Origin: Conexibacter sp. CPCC 206217
GTDB lineage: Bacteria; Actinomycetota; Thermoleophilia; Solirubrobacterales; Solirubrobacteraceae
Direction: 5' to 3'
Length of the DNA: 64,000 nucleotides
NCBI RefSeq assembly: GCF_030646165.1
Contig: NZ_JAUTDO010000004.1
Location: forward strand, 444,156-508,155
Part shown: piece by piece, positions 4,072-40,878 of the stretch
How the letters are laid out: each line of letters starts with the position of its first letter
How positions within the stretch are numbered: the first letter of the stretch is position 1
Position numbers and translations under genes: made by a program
The notes under the pieces: generated by a model
Seen by the model: only the letters and a program-made list of their open reading frames with translations
The model's database searches: none
Told to the model about the DNA's origin: nothing

Positions 4072-6219
4072 TCACGCTGCTTCAGCGGTGCTGAGCTCAT
4101 GCTCGATCACTCCAATCGTCTCCACACTGATGCCGGGTGCGATCTCGTTGTACGAGCAGACCGCGAGATGCGGGATCGCCTGTTCGACGAGGCGCCGCAG
4201 GTGGCGGCGCACGCGCGCCGAGCACAGCAGCACCGGACGGCTGCCGCGCGCGACTGCATGCTCCACCTGTGTTCGAAGCGCGCCCACCAAAGCCTGCGCG
4301 CGCACCGGATCCATCGCCAGGTACTCACCGTCGGACGTCTGCGTGATCGACGCCGCGATCTCCTGCTCGATCGCCGGGTCCAGCGCGATCGCCCGCAGGC
4401 GCTGCTCGGCGTCGACGTGCGGCGCGGTGATCGTGCGGCCGAGCGCCTGGCGCGCGTACTCCGACAGCAGCGCCGGGTCGCGCGTCAGCCGCGCCTTGTC
4501 GCCGATCGCCTCGACGATCGTGCCGAGGTCGCGGATCGAGACGCCCTCCATCAGCAGGTTCTGCAGCACGCGCTGGATCTCGCCGAGCGTGAGCATGTCC
4601 GGCACGACCTCGTTGACGACCGCCTCGTTGGACTCCTTCAGCTGCTCCAGCAGCTGTCTGGTGTCCTGGCGCGTCAGCAGCTCGGCGGCGTGTGCGCGGA
4701 TCATCTCGGTCAGGTGCGTGACGATCACCGACTCGCCGTCGACGACGGTGTAGCCGAGCGCTTCCGCCTCCGCCCGCTGCGAGTCCGAGACCCACGTCGC
4801 GGGCAGGCCGAAGGCCGGCTCGGTCGTCGGCACGCCCTGCAACTGGCCGACCGCGTCGCCCGGATCCATCGCGAGCTGGTGGCCGGCCATTATGCGTCCG
4901 CGCGCGACCTCGGTCCCGCGCACCTTCAGGACGTACTCGTGCGAGTCGAGGCCCAGCTCGTCGTGGATCCGCACGGGCGGGATCACCATGCCGAGGTCGG
5001 TCGCGATCTGGCGCCGGATGACGGACACGCGCGACAGCAGCGTGCCGCCGGAGTGCTGGTCGACGAGCCGCACGAGGCCGAAGCCGATCGCCAGCTCGAG
5101 CGGGTCGATCGGGAGCGCCTCCAGCGCCGCGTCGCGCGGCTGCGCGACCGCACTGCCCTCCGCGTCGGCGAGCGCCTTCGCGTCGGCCGCGTCGCCCGCG
5201 GCGTCGGCGTCGCTTCTGCGCAGCATCCAGCCGATCGCGAAGAAGATGCCGCCGATCACGATGAACGGGACCTTCGGCAGGCCCGGCACGAGCGCGAACG
5301 CGAGGATCGCGCCGCCGGCCACCAGCGGCGCCTTGCGCTGCTTGAGGATCTGGTCGGATATGTCGGCGCCGAGGTCCTTGTCGGAGGCGGCGCGCGTGAC
5401 GAGGATGCCGGTCGCGACCGAGATCAGGAGCGCCGGGATCTGCGCGGCGAGACCGTCGCCGATCGTCAGCAGCGAGAAGTGGTGGATCGCCTCGTTGAAC
5501 GGCATCCCCATCTGCATGATGCCGACGGCGAGCCCGCCGATCAGGTTGATCAGCACGATCACGATCGCGGCCACGGCGTCGCCTCTGACGAACTTCGAGG
5601 CACCGTCCATCGAGCCGTAGAAGTCGGCCTCCTGTGCGATCTCGGTGCGGCGACGGCGCGCCTCGTCGTCGGTGATCAGGCCGGCGTTGAGGTCGGCGTC
5701 GATCGCCATCTGCTTGCCCGGCATCGCGTCGAGCGTGAAGCGGGCGCCGACCTCCGCGACGCGGCCGGCGCCGTTGGTCACGACGACGAACTGGATCACG
5801 ATCAGGATGAAGAAGATCACGAGGCCGACGATCACGTTGCCGCCGACGACGAAGTCGCCGAACGCTCTGACGACGTGGCCGGCGTCGCCGGTCGTGAGGA
5901 TCAGGCGCGTCACCGAGACGTTGATCGCGAGCCGGAACATCGTCGTCAGCAGCAGCAGCGACGGGAACGAGGCGAAGTCGAGCGCTCTTCTGAGGTAGAG
6001 CGTCGAGACGACGATCGCGATGCCGGCCGAGATGTTCAGCGTGATGAAGAAGTCGAGCAGGACCGGCGGCAGCGGGATGATCAGCATCACGACGATCAAC
6101 ACGACGCCGAGGGCGGCCAGCAGGTCCGTCTGACTCGTCACCCTTCTCAGCAGGTTGGAGTTCGCGGCTGCGGCCGTCGCCGACGGGGCGTCGCGCTGGT
6201 TCGAACGTGCTGGGCTCAT
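4072..6219 (-). CDS. flhA: flagellar export apparatus protein FlhA
   Basis: The product has 715 residues, the normal FlhA length. About eight transmembrane segments lie in the first 330 residues, including the FHIPEP-family core around FRLAINVSVTRLILTTGDAG, and the cytoplasmic nonamer-ring domain occupies about 360-700. FlhA forms the ring through which substrates and chaperone complexes dock for export. The N terminus carries an extra 30-residue Ala-rich leader. It shares a 20-base identical DNA segment with the start of flhF. The ATG overlaps the flhB stop in ATGA. It belongs to the fliO-fliP-fliQ-fliR-flhB-flhA-flhF run. Confidence 0.97.
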   Translation of the reverse strand: MSPARSNQRDAPSATAAAANSNLLRRVTSQTDLLAALGVVLIVVMLIIPLPPVLLDFFITLNISAGIAIVVSTLYLRRALDFASFPSLLLLTTMFRLAINVSVTRLILTTGDAGHVVRAFGDFVVGGNVIVGLVIFFILIVIQFVVVTNGAGRVAEVGARFTLDAMPGKQMAIDADLNAGLITDDEARRRRTEIAQEADFYGSMDGASKFVRGDAVAAIVIVLINLIGGLAVGIMQMGMPFNEAIHHFSLLTIGDGLAAQIPALLISVATGILVTRAASDKDLGADISDQILKQRKAPLVAGGAILAFALVPGLPKVPFIVIGGIFFAIGWMLRRSDADAAGDAADAKALADAEGSAVAQPRDAALEALPIDPLELAIGFGLVRLVDQHSGGTLLSRVSVIRRQIATDLGMVIPPVRIHDELGLDSHEYVLKVRGTEVARGRIMAGHQLAMDPGDAVGQLQGVPTTEPAFGLPATWVSDSQRAEAEALGYTVVDGESVIVTHLTEMIRAHAAELLTRQDTRQLLEQLKESNEAVVNEVVPDMLTLGEIQRVLQNLLMEGVSIRDLGTIVEAIGDKARLTRDPALLSEYARQALGRTITAPHVDAEQRLRAIALDPAIEQEIAASITQTSDGEYLAMDPVRAQALVGALRTQVEHAVARGSRPVLLCSARVRRHLRRLVEQAIPHLAVCSYNEIAPGISVETIGVIEHELSTAEAA

Positions 6220-7292
6220 CGGGCGACGGCCTTCCTGCGGGCGGTTCCCGCGACTCTGTAGACGTGCGCCAGCACCTGCGCGACGGCCTGGTAGAGATCC
6301 TCAGGGATCATCTGGCCGACCTCGACGCTGGCGTGCAGCGAGCGTGCGAGCGGTCTGTTCTCGATCACCGGCACGTCGTGCTCGGCGGCGATTCTCTTGA
6401 TCTGCAGGGCGATCAGGTCCTGCCCCTTCGCGACGACCTCGGGGGCGGGCTTGGAGCCGTCGTACTTGAGCGCGACGGCGAAGTGGGTCGGGTTCGTGAC
6501 GATCACGTCCGCCTGCGGGACGGCGGCCATCATGCGAGCACGCGCCTGCTGCATCATGCGGCGGCGCTGCATGCCCTTGACCTCGGCCGGCAGCGACTGC
6601 GATCTGTGCTCGTCCTTGACGTCCTGCAGGGACATTCTCAGCTGTCTCTCGTGCTGCCAGCGCTGGTAGGCGTAGTCGATGAAGCCGATGAACAGGTAGG
6701 CGATCGCGGCGCGCTGCGCAACGGCGAAGACCATGCCCGCCAGCTCGCTGCCGAGCTGCACCGGGCTGGTGCCGACGGTCGCGGCCAGCTCGGTCATCTT
6801 CGGCATCAGCGTCATCGCGACGATCACGCCGACGACGGCGACTTTGAGGATCGACTTGCCGGCCTCGAAGAACATTCTCGGGCCGAAGATGTTTCTCGCG
6901 CCCGACAGCGGGTCGATCCGTCTCGGCTGCGGCTTGAGCGCCTCCGCCGACGGCTTCAGGCCGACCTGGCCGACGTTCGCGACGACCGCCGCCACGACGC
7001 AGACGAGCGCGACCGGCGCGACCGCGTAGACGAGCGTCTGCAGCGTCGACATCATCAGCGTCTCCAGCCCGCGCGCGGTCAGCGCGCTGCCGGGGTCGGC
7101 GATGCGGTCGAACGCGTCGCACATCGACGTCGCCATGCCGTTGACCATCTTCGGCCCCATCAGCGACAGCACGAGCAGGCCGGCGATCATCACGATCGAG
7201 CCGTTGACGTCCATCGAGCGCGCGACCTGGCCTCTGCGCCGCGCGTCCGCGCGGCGTCTGGGTGTCGCTCTCTCTGTTCTGTCGTCAGCCAT
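6216..7292 (-). CDS. flhB: flagellar export switch protein FlhB
   Basis: The product has 358 residues: a basic N terminus (RTERATPRRRADARRRGQ), four membrane helices to about residue 220, then the cytoplasmic autocleavage domain. The cleavage motif NPTH is intact at 267-270. FlhB switches export specificity from rod/hook to filament substrates after the FliK signal. Its C-terminal tail MIPEDLYQAVAQVLAHVYRV matches the small protein encoded at 37757-37942. The ATG lies two codons beyond the fliR stop, so the two are coupled. Confidence 0.96.
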   Translation of the reverse strand: MADDRTERATPRRRADARRRGQVARSMDVNGSIVMIAGLLVLSLMGPKMVNGMATSMCDAFDRIADPGSALTARGLETLMMSTLQTLVYAVAPVALVCVVAAVVANVGQVGLKPSAEALKPQPRRIDPLSGARNIFGPRMFFEAGKSILKVAVVGVIVAMTLMPKMTELAATVGTSPVQLGSELAGMVFAVAQRAAIAYLFIGFIDYAYQRWQHERQLRMSLQDVKDEHRSQSLPAEVKGMQRRRMMQQARARMMAAVPQADVIVTNPTHFAVALKYDGSKPAPEVVAKGQDLIALQIKRIAAEHDVPVIENRPLARSLHASVEVGQMIPEDLYQAVAQVLAHVYRVAGTARRKAVAR

Positions 7293-36730: not shown

Positions 36731-36960
36731 ACGCGGCGGTGCGCCGGCTGACGCGAAGTCCCAGCAAACCCACGGTTTTTGCGCGTGCCGGTAGATGGCT
36801 CGGCGAAACGCGCTTATGACACCTCACACGTTCATCTGGACGGATGTTGGGGGTTTAGTACCCCAATCGGGCTATCCAGCTCGTGAGGTGGTCTTCCGAT
36901 ACCAGCGGCGCACCCCCAAACCGCAGGCAGTCCCTCGAACCCCCAGGAAGGCATCGGAGC
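36731..36960. other. divergent control region between glycosyltransferase and fliA
   Basis: A 230-base gap, clearly richer in A/T than its surroundings. It holds TTGGGG-N8-CCCCAA around 36847-36866, with a further CCCCCAAA at 36912 and AACCCCC at 36938, which may be operator-like repeats upstream of fliA. A bulged inverted repeat GCAAACC-CAC-GGTTTTTGC lies near 36765-36783. I find no convincing sigma-28 box on the plus strand. What turns on fliA is therefore not shown. Confidence 0.45.
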
Positions 36961-37773
36961 ATGAAGCTCGATACGAGGCGCCACACACGCATCTCCGCAG
37001 AGGATGCATTGACGTTGTGGCGGCAGTACAAGGAGAGCGGCGACCGCGCCGTTCGCGACCGTCTTGTCCTGACGTTCGCACCGATGGTGAAGTACATCGT
37101 CTACAAGAAGGTCCGCGAGATCCCCGCGCGTTGCGAGGTCGAGGACTTCATCTCCTGCGGGCTCGAGGCCCTGATCCACTCGATCGAGCGCTACGACCCG
37201 GAGAAGGGCGCGACGCTGGAGCAGTTCGCCTGGACGCGGATCCACGGCGCCGTGCTCGACGAGCTGCGCCGCCAGGACTGGGCGCCGCGTTCGCTGCGCC
37301 GCTGGGAGCGCGACATCAACCAGGCCAGGGAACACTTCATCGGCGTTCACGGTCGGCGGCCCTCACGCGAGGAGCTGGCCGGTGCGCTCGGGTCGACCGT
37401 CAGCGAGCTGCGCGCTCGCGAAGACGAGATCGTCGCCTCGGACGTGACCTCGCTCAACACGCTCGTGCTGAGCGACGACGAGACCGCGATCGAGCGCATA
37501 GACACGCTCGTCAGCGAGGATCGCTTCGCCGACCCCGAGCACCACACGGCCCGCGACCAGGCGAAGATGCGCTTCCGCGCCGCCTTCGAGCGGCTGCCGC
37601 GCCGCGAGCGCGAGGTCGCCGTGCTGCTCTACGTCAAGAACCTCACGCTGCGCGAGATCGGCGGGATCCTCGGCGTCTCCGAGAGCCGCGTCTGCCAGAT
37701 CCACGGACAGCTGAAGCGGATGCTGAAGGAAGAGCTGTCTGCGGACAGCGTTCTCTTCAGCGAGGTCGCGTAG
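36961..37773 (+). CDS. fliA: flagellar sigma factor FliA (sigma-28)
   Basis: The product has 270 residues. Region 2 contains APMVKYIVYKKVREIP and YDPEKGATLEQFAWTRIHGA followed by VLDELRRQDWAPRS, which is the FliA/WhiG class signature. Region 3 carries RPSREELAGALG. Region 4 ends with LTLREIGGILGVSESRVCQI. It directs RNA polymerase to the TAAA-N15-GCCGAT promoters found throughout the cluster. The ATG at 36961 has AGGAAGG upstream; an in-frame ATG at 36883 has no conserved sequence. It is transcribed divergently from the glycosyltransferase, and its 3' end overlaps the convergent small gene at 37757. Confidence 0.95.
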   Translation: MKLDTRRHTRISAEDALTLWRQYKESGDRAVRDRLVLTFAPMVKYIVYKKVREIPARCEVEDFISCGLEALIHSIERYDPEKGATLEQFAWTRIHGAVLDELRRQDWAPRSLRRWERDINQAREHFIGVHGRRPSREELAGALGSTVSELRAREDEIVASDVTSLNTLVLSDDETAIERIDTLVSEDRFADPEHHTARDQAKMRFRAAFERLPRREREVAVLLYVKNLTLREIGGILGVSESRVCQIHGQLKRMLKEELSADSVLFSEVA

Positions 37774-37942
37774 GCCCGGCAGGGACCGTCGTACCGCGGC
37801 TCGCCACCTCACGGTCGAGCCGCCCCACCCAGTCGAGTGTCTCGGCGACCGCGTGCCACAGCGGTTCGGGGAGGTCGCCGAGCGCCAACTGGGACAGTGC
37901 CGCAGCGAGCGCCGCGTCGTCGTGCGAGCGATCCTCAGGCAT
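37757..37942 (-). CDS. FlhX-like mini-protein: FlhB C-terminal tail only
   Basis: The product has 61 residues. After a short acidic start it reads LAAALSQLALGDLPEP then LWHAVAETLDWVGRLDREV, which aligns with the end of FlhB in this window (MIPEDLYQAVAQVLAHVYRV). The autocleavage motif NPTH and the strand before it are absent. Stand-alone FlhB C-terminal homologues (FlhX, Bacillus YlqH) are known but are usually about 90 residues and keep more of the domain. The ATG lies within the end of the preceding FliK-like gene (overlap of 8 bases), so the pair is translationally coupled. The 3' end overlaps the end of fliA on the other strand. Confidence 0.75.
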   Translation of the reverse strand: MPEDRSHDDAALAAALSQLALGDLPEPLWHAVAETLDWVGRLDREVASRGTTVPAGPTRPR

Positions 37943-38543
37943 AGACGTCGAGCGGGTCGTGCCGCGGGACGAGCGTGATCTCGGCCGGACGACCGAGCTG
38001 CGTCTGCAGCGTCGCGTGCAACTGCTCGGTGCGCTGCTCCCCCTGCTCCAGCACGTCCGCCGGCAGCGCGATCCGCACGCGCGACGCGATCGCGTCGACC
38101 GACACGTGCAGCTCGACCGCACCCAGTTGCGGCAGCTCGTAGCGCAGCGTCAGCGATCCGCCCTCCTCGCCGTCGCGCTCGCCGTCGCTGCCGCCGCCGT
38201 CGCGCTCAAGCACCGCCAGCCGGCGCCCCCCGGGCAGGTTCACCTCCGCCGGCGCGGGCGGCGGCAGCTGCTGGAAGGCGCTTGCCGACAGCTCGCGCGG
38301 CTGCGCGATCTGCAGCAGCAGCCGCTCGTTGGTCGCCTCCTGCACGATCAGCCGCAGGCGGTCGCCGGGTCTGACGTCGCTCGGCAGCTCCGCCGTCAGG
38401 ATCGCGCCGGCGAGGTTGATGATCCCGACGTTCTGCTGGCCGCGCTCCAGCACGCGCGCCGCCAGCGAACGGCCGGGCGTCAGCGACAGGTCGGGCGCGG
38501 AGGCGCGCAGCAGCACGAGATCGACGGACAGCGACTGCGGCAT
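37935..38543 (-). CDS. short second FliK-like protein (YlqG-like)
   Basis: The product has 202 residues. The N-terminal half has the FliK/YlqG beta pattern GRSLAARVLERGQQNVGIIN, GAILTAELPSDVRPGDRLRL and ANERLLLQI-type strands. The second half resembles a Flg_hook domain: LRYELPQLGAVELHVSVDAI and RTEQLHATLQTQLGRPAEI. It is much shorter than the ruler FliK at 22685 and lacks the low-complexity spacer. Together with the FlhB-tail gene it copies the FliK/FlhB partnership in miniature. The ATG at 38543 faces the plus-strand flgF promoter. The family call rests on pattern only. Confidence 0.7.
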   Translation of the reverse strand: MPQSLSVDLVLLRASAPDLSLTPGRSLAARVLERGQQNVGIINLAGAILTAELPSDVRPGDRLRLIVQEATNERLLLQIAQPRELSASAFQQLPPPAPAEVNLPGGRRLAVLERDGGGSDGERDGEEGGSLTLRYELPQLGAVELHVSVDAIASRVRIALPADVLEQGEQRTEQLHATLQTQLGRPAEITLVPRHDPLDVYA

Positions 38544-38575: not shown

Positions 38576-38602
38576 TAAAGATCCCGCTCCCAGCTCCGAC
38601 TA
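38576..38602 (+). promoter_or_regulatory. sigma-28 promoter of plus-strand flgF gene
   Basis: TAAA-N15-TCCGACTA. The -10 ends 10 bases before the ATG, so the transcript would have about 4 leader bases and no Shine-Dalgarno. This is the only sigma-28 promoter on the plus strand. Confidence 0.65.
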
Positions 38603-38612
38603 CACGGGCTAC

Positions 38613-39311
38613 ATGGAACGTGGCCTCTACATCGCGGCGTCCGGCATGGTTGCCGAGCAGATGCGCCAGGACGCGATCGCAAACGACCTCGCGAACTCCT
38701 CGACGCCCGGTTACAAGGCCGACCGCGTCACGCAGTCGAGCTTCGGCGACCTGCTGCTGAGCAACACCTCGACCGGCCAGGTCGTCGGGCCGCTCGGCAC
38801 CGGCGTCTACGCCGACGAGATGACGACCGACCTGTCGCCGCAGGCGACGCGCGTGACCGACGAACCGCTCGACCTGGCGATCGCCGGCGAGGGCTACTTC
38901 GGCGTGCAGACGCCGCAGGGCGTCAGATACACGCGCAACGGGCAGTTCACCGCCTCGCCCCAGGGCCTGCTCGTCGACCAGCTCGGCAACCCCGTCGTCG
39001 GCAGAGGCGGCGGCCAGGTCCAGATCGCCGCCAACGGCCAGGTCGACGCGGCGACGGTCGGCGTCTTCAGACTGACCGGCGCGACGAAGCAAGGCGACAA
39101 CTACTTCGCCGGCGCGGTCGCCGGCCAGGCCGCAGGCGCGGTCCAGACCGGTGCGCTGGAAGGCTCCGGCATCGACCCCGCCCGCACGATGGTCGACATG
39201 ATCGCCTCCTTCCGCGCCTACGAGGCCGGCCAGAAGGTCATCCAGACGATCGACGACACGCTGCGCCGCACCGGCACCCAGGTCGCCAACGCGACCGGCG
39301 GCGCCTCCTAG
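38613..39311 (+). CDS. flgF: flagellar rod protein, FlgF/FlgG family
   Basis: The product has 232 residues. The N-terminal rod motif is GLYIAASGMVAEQMRQDAIA, NDLANSSTPGYKADR. The middle has the flagellin-like basal-body pattern LDLAIAGEGYFGVQTPQGVR with YTRNGQFTASPQGLLV. The C terminus has EGSGIDPARTMVDMIASFRA and YEAGQKVIQTIDDTL. It is probably FlgF, because a clear FlgG is at 44813 and FlgE at 20759. The gene is isolated from other rod genes on the opposite strand, with its own promoter and a terminator after it. Confidence 0.85.
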   Translation: MERGLYIAASGMVAEQMRQDAIANDLANSSTPGYKADRVTQSSFGDLLLSNTSTGQVVGPLGTGVYADEMTTDLSPQATRVTDEPLDLAIAGEGYFGVQTPQGVRYTRNGQFTASPQGLLVDQLGNPVVGRGGGQVQIAANGQVDAATVGVFRLTGATKQGDNYFAGAVAGQAAGAVQTGALEGSGIDPARTMVDMIASFRAYEAGQKVIQTIDDTLRRTGTQVANATGGAS

Positions 39312-39363: not shown

Positions 39364-40878
39364 TCATCGCCACAGCGCGATCTCGCTGATCTCGACGTGG
39401 TCGCCGCCGGGCGGCAGTCTCGTGATCCACAGCAGCACGTGGCGGCTGCGCTCGCCGCCGCTCTCGAGCGTGATCTCCTGGCGGCTGCCGACGCTCGGCA
39501 CCGTCGCGACTCTTCTCCAGGCCGGGTCGTCGATGCCCGCGGGCACGTCGCCGGGCGTGATGTAGACGTCGGCCGAGAACCCCTTGGTCGGCGTCCGCAC
39601 GACCATTCTGCGCAGCACGGCGCCCGGCGAGACGTCGACCGTGAGACCGACGCCGGGCTTCGCCAGCACGCCGCCGTCGTATCTCTCGGTGCTCCAGAAC
39701 GTGGTCGGGTTCTTGTCGACGGCTGCGGTCGTCTCGTCGGCGTGCTCTCTGGAGTCGCCGTTGGGGTCGTAGTCGTCGGCGGCCGTCTGGCTGAGGCCGA
39801 TCGGCACCAGCTGCTCGACCTGGCCACCTCTGTCGGCGGTGCCGCTCGGCTCGCCGGTCGTGCCGGTGCCGGCCTCCTTGCCGTTCAGCACGACGATCAC
39901 CACCACCAGCGCCGCGACGACGGCCACCAGCGCCATCAACGCCAGCACCTGCGGTCTGCGCACGCGCAGCGGGACGCGCTTGCGCGCGCGCCGCGGCAGC
40001 GTCCGGATCACGGTCGTCGCCTCGCCCGTCGCGCTGCCGGCGCGCGCGGTCTCCAGCGCCAGCACGTCCTCCAGGTCGGCGATCAGCTCCTCGTCGCTGC
40101 GGTAGCGCTCCCTCAGCTCCTTCGCCGTCGCGCGGTCGATCACGGCCGCCAGCGAGGCGGACACCTCCGGCCGCAGCGCCTGCACGTCCGGCAGCTCCTC
40201 GCGCACGTGCTTCATCGCGACCGCGACCTGGTTCTCGCCTCTGAAGGGGACGCTGCCGGTCAGCATCTCGAACAGCACGATGCCGAGCGAGTAGAGGTCC
40301 GACTGGCCCGAGACGGGATGGCCGAGCGCCTGCTCGGGCGAGACGTAGTCGGTCGTGCCGAGCACGCGGCCGTCCTGCGTCAGGCCGTCCTCGTCGAGCG
40401 TGCGCGCGATCCCGAAGTCGGTGACCTTCGCGCTGCCCTCCTCGTCGATCAGGACGTTCTGCGGCTTCACGTCGCGGTGGACGATGTGGCGCGCGTGCGC
40501 GGCGCCGAGCGCGCGCGCGATCTCGATCGCGTACGCGACCGCCTCGCTGATCGGCAGCCCGCCGAGCCGCCGGATCCGTTCCTTCAACGTCTCGCCCTCG
40601 ACGTACTCGAAGACGATGTAGGGCCGGCCGGCGTCCTCGCCGGCGTCGATCACGCCGACGATATGGGGATGCGACAGCTGCGCGACCGCGCGCGCCTCGC
40701 GGCGGAAGCGCTCGAGCTGATCCGAGTCCGACGCGATCTCGCGATTCATCAGCTTGATCGCGACCTGCCGCTCGAGCGTCTCGTCGAGCGCGCGGTAGAC
40801 GGTCGACATGCCGCCGGTCCCGATCCGGGCCTCGAGGCGGTAGCGGTCGTTCAACAGAGTGCCGAGCAGCGTGCTCAC
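39364..40878 (-). CDS. membrane Ser/Thr kinase with C-terminal discoidin-like domain
   Basis: The product has 504 residues. The kinase domain (about 12-275) has G-loop IGTGGMSTVY, VAIKLM Lys, IVHRDVKPQN, DFGIA and SPEQALGH. A basic linker is followed by one membrane helix near 310-335 (LMALVAVVAALVVVIVVLNG). The external domain of about 140 residues has the beta-sandwich pattern DYDPNGDSREHADETTAAVD, TTFWSTERYDG and HVLLWITRLPPGGDHVEISE, resembling a galactose-binding or F5/8 type C fold. No PASTA repeats are present. The start is GTG. It lies 92 bases after csrA, so a link to the flagellar operon is possible but unproven. Confidence 0.85.
   Translation of the reverse strand: MSTLLGTLLNDRYRLEARIGTGGMSTVYRALDETLERQVAIKLMNREIASDSDQLERFRREARAVAQLSHPHIVGVIDAGEDAGRPYIVFEYVEGETLKERIRRLGGLPISEAVAYAIEIARALGAAHARHIVHRDVKPQNVLIDEEGSAKVTDFGIARTLDEDGLTQDGRVLGTTDYVSPEQALGHPVSGQSDLYSLGIVLFEMLTGSVPFRGENQVAVAMKHVREELPDVQALRPEVSASLAAVIDRATAKELRERYRSDEELIADLEDVLALETARAGSATGEATTVIRTLPRRARKRVPLRVRRPQVLALMALVAVVAALVVVIVVLNGKEAGTGTTGEPSGTADRGGQVEQLVPIGLSQTAADDYDPNGDSREHADETTAAVDKNPTTFWSTERYDGGVLAKPGVGLTVDVSPGAVLRRMVVRTPTKGFSADVYITPGDVPAGIDDPAWRRVATVPSVGSRQEITLESGGERSRHVLLWITRLPPGGDHVEISEIALWR

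Follow-up and report, generated by a model that had tools for sequence, protein, structure and literature searches.

The 61-residue protein encoded beside a short fliK-like gene in the window (the whole 64,000-nucleotide stretch of DNA that we analysed) is a reduced FlhX, the homolog of the FlhB tail that exists as a separate protein; orthology, gene order, profile and fold support this identification. Whether this reduced FlhX now assists the FliK-like protein as its accessory partner, in a lineage from which the pair is disappearing, we consider about evenly balanced; its identity comes from the comparisons below, while its binding and role are what we infer from them.

Organization of the locus

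The features discussed here are compiled in Table 1. The fliK-like gene and the short flhX share eight bases, ATGCCTGA, which hold both the start of the short flhX and the stop of the fliK-like gene, an overlap that likely couples the translation of the former to that of the latter. The fliA gene is convergent to the short flhX and overlaps its last 17 bases, while the flgF-like gene is divergent from the fliK-like gene, whose start is 69 bases away. The overlap, the lengths of both proteins, the coordinates and the residues quoted in an earlier sequence-only reading of this DNA proved exact, and the full FlhB and the 505-residue FliK that it mentioned are indeed present.

Between the divergent genes lies a sigma-28-type promoter-like element. 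It recurs at 23 of 29 loci, where the spacer is mostly 14 bases long and the distance to the downstream flgF nearly fixed; fliA is two genes distant from it. A search of the 64-kb window against Rfam returned no RNA families.

Table 1. Features of the window that are referred to in the text, with positions counted from its first nucleotide.
Feature	Positions	Strand	Basis
Full FlhB, 358 aa, with NPTH	6216-7292	-	Pfam PF01312; TIGR00328, 362 bits; NPTH visible in alignment
Main FliK, 505 aa	22685-24202	-	Pfam Flg_hook, 1.3e-15; found in all seven genomes of the genus
fliA (sigma factor, FliA/WhiG type)	36883-37773	+	NCBIfam TIGR02479, 205.9 bits
Short flhX, 61 aa (61 codons), MPEDRSHDDAALAAALSQLALGDLPEPLWHAVAETLDWVGRL...	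37757-37942	-	Translation; alignment with full FlhX and FlhB; signature of purifying selection
Predicted helical hairpin, short FlhX residues 9-49 (helices 9-18 and 26-49)	37796-37918	-	AlphaFold2 model
8-base start/stop overlap	37935-37942	-	Sequence; equal -8 overlap in several full-length relatives
fliK-like gene (FliK-like protein), 202 aa (202 codons)	37935-38543	-	Translation; orthologs across the class; Flg_hook in orthologs
C-terminal switch-domain (T3S4-like) fold, FliK-like residues about 109-202	37938-38219	-	Model compared with solved structures
Sigma-28-type promoter-like element, T(C/A)AAG-N14-nCCGA	38576-38599	+	
flgF-like rod gene	38613-39311	+	NCBIfam TIGR03506 / TIGR02490
PknB-type Ser/Thr kinase gene, just past flgF in the flagellar region	39364-40878	-	

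The short protein is a reduced FlhX

According to the alignment, the short FlhX retains helices alpha3 and alpha4 of the FlhB tail and nothing else of the tail domain. Searched alone, it reached no Pfam family, and its match to the FlhB-related family TIGR00789 was weak (E 0.23), although it kept the register of the profile (positions 45-83 of 84), scoring 11.7 bits against a curated cut-off of 117.35 bits and leaving part of the domain uncovered. Pairwise BLASTP against FlhB gave an E value of 9e-4, and a profile that includes the short FlhX matched the FlhB of the window at 5e-16. The identity is settled because, besides this last match, the orthologs agree with the family profiles: 19 of the 21 FlhX alignment rows match TIGR00789, and 23 of the 27 aligned FliK-like orthologs match Flg_hook (best 5.4e-11). 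The profile similarity that the sequence-only reading expected of both small proteins was thus absent from Pfam searches with either one alone and present among their orthologs. Its statement that the small protein keeps only the last helix pair of FlhB is borne out by the alignment, the profile match and a modelled hairpin (AlphaFold2, mean pLDDT 78, and 94 for residues 31-40). A Foldseek search with this model found nothing useful, which is unsurprising for a hairpin.

As in FlhX proteins of the TIGR00789 type, there is no membrane part and no NPTH autocleavage site, the gene directly follows a fliK-like gene, with the position and overlap of its full-length relatives, and the alpha3-alpha4 hairpin is conserved; the short form differs from them in that the beta-alpha-beta half with which the domain begins (equivalent to about 274-313 in Salmonella FlhB) is missing, and in that it falls below the family cut-off. 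The missing NPTH, correctly pointed out before, is not distinctive, since the full FlhX proteins here likewise start downstream of the cleavage site.

A first scan of genome contigs with the single protein found no relative, and neither small protein found a convincing match among the sequences of solved structures. A second location for the missing half of the domain was rejected after a profile search of the genome, which returned only FlhB, the short form and otherwise matches with E > 0.01. An upstream extension of the short frame was also rejected: the 121-residue frame with a GTG start results only from reading the fliK-like gene in another frame, and it is missing in one of the two other genomes with the short form (G387).

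The FliK-like partner

The ortholog profiles and the modelled fold identify the 202-residue protein as a short FliK-like switch-domain protein, in agreement with the family proposed for it from sequence. It matched no Pfam family by itself, Flg_hook included; within the class, FliK-like matches (E <= 0.001) were obtained in 52 of 399 genomes. The AlphaFold2 model (mean pLDDT 83) shows a beta domain at the N-terminus; among solved structures, its C-terminal domain is most similar to the switch domain of PscP (5cuk; Foldseek probability 1.00, Z 7.8 over 78 residues), with the C-terminal domain of FliK (2rrl) at Z 5.1. The protein shares this fold with the FliK/PscP (T3S4) switch proteins, but it is short, has the N-terminal beta domain in place of a long ruler, and coexists with a separate 505-residue FliK, which is the likelier hook-length ruler of the two. 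Similarity to this main FliK was weak in a pairwise comparison (E 0.03; hhalign probability 6%), so there is no sign of a recent fliK duplication.

The pair in the order and beyond

Across the order, this fliK-like gene has a full flhX, encoding about 83-115 residues, directly behind it, and the pair often stands between fliA and flgF. At the loci sampled outside the genus, which were those with readable downstream sequence and a good FliK-like profile match, the two genes usually share 4 to 14 bases, the full flhX starting before the fliK-like gene ends. A row reading of our survey of 232 genomes of the order gave 45 genomes with a full FlhX, all outside the genus of the window, and three with the short form, all within this genus, where no full FlhX was found; these counts leave aside partial matches (a second one in G326, and those in G445, G407 and G454; two start at a contig end). 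The pair itself is therefore not new but a standard item of the order, and the truncation alone is special to the genus. With 58-61 residues against 83-115, the FlhX of this reduced FliK/FlhB-tail pair is smaller than those known, as the sequence-only reading had proposed.

Several genomes of the order (genera g14 and g9, and single genomes of other genera) have FlhB without FlhX, and FlhX appears to have been lost repeatedly. At one locus (L024; 77-370, minus strand), the middle of FlhX (GRGAPARAGAAAAPAPGGPVRDD) looks scrambled relative to its relatives, perhaps through a compensated frameshift or a sequence error. A contig titled as a Bifidobacterium breve MAG (L135, CAMCUD010000038.1) carries flgF together with FliK-like and FlhX genes, all of the type seen in the Solirubrobacterales, and is probably mislabelled. 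The pair is wider than the Actinobacteria, since FlhX lies at the end of a large fliK-like frame at four loci titled Betaproteobacteria, Burkholderiales and Rhodanobacteraceae (L077, L081, L109 and L137).

Known FlhX homologs include HP1575 of Helicobacter and the FlhB-related small protein YlqH of B. subtilis; the study on HP1575 reportedly calls it a ‘spare part’ for the FlhB tail in its title. Among actinobacterial classes, FlhX is recorded as missing from the later, non-FlgFG ones, in contrast to the basal classes (PMC10746217). An flhX-fliK pair is named in Nitratiruptor, and it resembles the present one in that the two genes adjoin; the paper names the pair and says nothing further of it (PMC9321776). 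The papers that we consulted contain no account of a half-size form.

A probable ancestral deletion and the loss of the pair

Among the seven genomes of the genus, the pair is intact in three, and FlhX is short in all of them, with 61 residues in the window genome, 59 in G387 and 58 in G198. In the alignment, the start MP(E/D), also found in several full-length relatives, and the last two helices are retained, and about 40 residues between them (ALxY...AP.VVA.G.G..A..I..A...GVPVR) are gone. Because the breakpoints are identical in the three genomes, the simplest reading is a single internal in-frame deletion in their common ancestor, and the constraint would then have acted after the deletion. 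The three genomes differ by 18-26% in FlhB; in a tree of FliA plus FlhB, some nodes of which are weakly supported, they group with G111, while G340 with G399 and G230 stand outside.

The pair is absent from G111, G340 and G399. In G340 and G399, flgF directly follows fliA, and in G111 another gene does. In G230 (L056), the region downstream of fliA holds a fliK-like gene that is broken, with both a stop and a deletion, and the latter appears to have fused the fliK-like remnant to an FlhX-like tail. The lineage is thus, as far as these gene contents tell, losing the pair. All seven genomes have the main FliK, and all but the incomplete G399 have FlhB, so keeping these two does not require the pair.

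Selection on the short gene

G+C at third codon positions amounts to 80-88% in the short flhX and about 95% in its partner, high enough for simple counts to miss constraint; uncorrected Nei-Gojobori dN/dS values were discarded as uninformative and codon models (GY94 with position-specific base frequencies) were used instead. Separate fits to the short flhX gave an omega of 0.36 for codons 4-48 and of 0.28 for codons 14-44 (2dlnL of 8.0 and 8.6, respectively, against omega=1). A joint fit, in which FliA, the fliK-like gene, the end of FlhB and the overlap-free codons 9-43 of the short flhX have common branch lengths and equal synonymous rates are assumed, gave an omega of 0.195 for the short flhX and rejected omega=1 (2dlnL 58), with three sequences on a star tree. 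The fliK-like gene (0.215) was indistinguishable from it, and the equivalent FlhB segment reached 0.07, so the constraint on the short flhX is the weaker one. Judged by its codons, the short gene is under purifying selection and has a protein-coding signature, which argues for the translation of this small frame.

Loss of half the docking pocket

The FliK switch domain acts on the FlhB tail, whose docking pocket for early substrates in Salmonella consists of A286, P287, A341 and L344; the FliK-bypassing changes described earlier fall within residues 274-323 (PMC13344023). In Aquifex FlhB, helix alpha4 packs against the beta-sheet (PMC3708937). With positions numbered after Salmonella FlhB by alignment, the short FlhX shares alpha3-alpha4 with the cleaved C-terminal domain of FlhB, including positions 341 and 344, the former being V in G198; it differs from FlhB in having no membrane domain, autocleavage site, beta-sheet or A286/P287, the whole beta-alpha-beta half (roughly 274-313) being gone. 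All 48 full sequences, which are mutually related and hence not 48 independent cases, have A, V or S at position 345, and the three short ones have D or E there; position 348 is mostly aromatic, and G, D or V in the short forms. From the helical spacing, positions 341, 344, 345 and 348 would lie on one face. With the beta-sheet gone, alpha4 of the short FlhX must be exposed or find another partner.

Proposed role of the reduced FlhX and rival explanations

The reading of the short FlhX as an accessory partner starts from the fliK-like/flhX pair of the order, whose flhX lost the beta-alpha-beta half in an ancestor of part of the genus and was left with its original start and the hairpin. To judge from overlap and codon constraint, the product would still be translated and coupled to the fliK-like gene; having lost half the pocket and altered the rest, it would no longer stand in for the FlhB tail or dock substrates. 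The FliK-like protein is its likeliest partner given the coupling and the matching constraint, and we infer that the short FlhX may bind the switch domain of this partner, stabilising or restraining it. The pair would then tune the export switch from rod and hook to filament while being a dispensable addition to the main FliK and FlhB. We counted for this role the gene order and overlap of the relatives, the confinement of the three short forms to the genus against 45 genomes with full FlhX outside it, the identical breakpoints, the omega values, the partner's fold, the pocket loss and the known action of the FliK switch domain on the FlhB tail, and against it the absence of the pair from three of the seven genus members, its breakage in one, a constraint below that of FlhB, and the small basis of three sequences for the selection test; whatever the pair does is dispensable, given these absences and the broken copy. 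The bolder proposal of a new switch accessory, in which a hairpin derived from an FlhB-tail paralog acts as a cytoplasmic partner of a second FliK-like protein and regulates the export switch with neither docking pocket nor autocleavage, is tentative and, in our opinion, rather unlikely.

The gene could instead be a fading relic with no function of its own, slow to vanish from a genus that is losing the whole pair. The broken pair of G230 and the absences in G111, G340 and G399 fit this explanation, as do the other flagellated genera of the order that have FlhB without FlhX and a constraint weaker than that on the full FlhX of other genera; but omega=1 is rejected after the deletion, and start, overlap and core have been retained in three species whose FlhB proteins have diverged considerably, which makes a relic doubtful. 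The sequence-only reading had considered a decoy, and the hairpin is clearly similar enough to the end of FlhB to imagine it mimicking alpha3-alpha4 and titrating FliK or early substrates. This is disfavoured and we regard it as improbable, because A286 and P287 are missing, position 345 is acidic, the usual aromatic residue at 348 is missing, and alpha4 normally packs on a sheet that the short form does not have (PMC3708937); half a pocket with an acidic residue beside the remainder likewise makes it unlikely that the protein could replace the FlhB tail. The other suggestion of that reading, modulation of the hook-filament switch, is possible, and both functional ideas have less in their favour than its identification of the pair. 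Spurious frames are common in G+C-rich genomes, and the short frame has no Pfam match and lies antisense to fliA over its last 17 bases, yet an untranslated chance ORF is barely credible for a positional ortholog of full FlhX with a conserved start overlap and core and with purifying selection outside the overlaps.

The accessory reading, like its rivals, concerns a natural deletion series among related bacteria that keep FlhB, from a full FlhX through half an FlhX and a broken pair to none. Where selection has been kept and the pocket lost, two possible roles of FlhX, as a substitute FlhB tail and as a partner of the FliK-like protein, become separable, and the short FlhX opens the function of this little-studied pair to testing.
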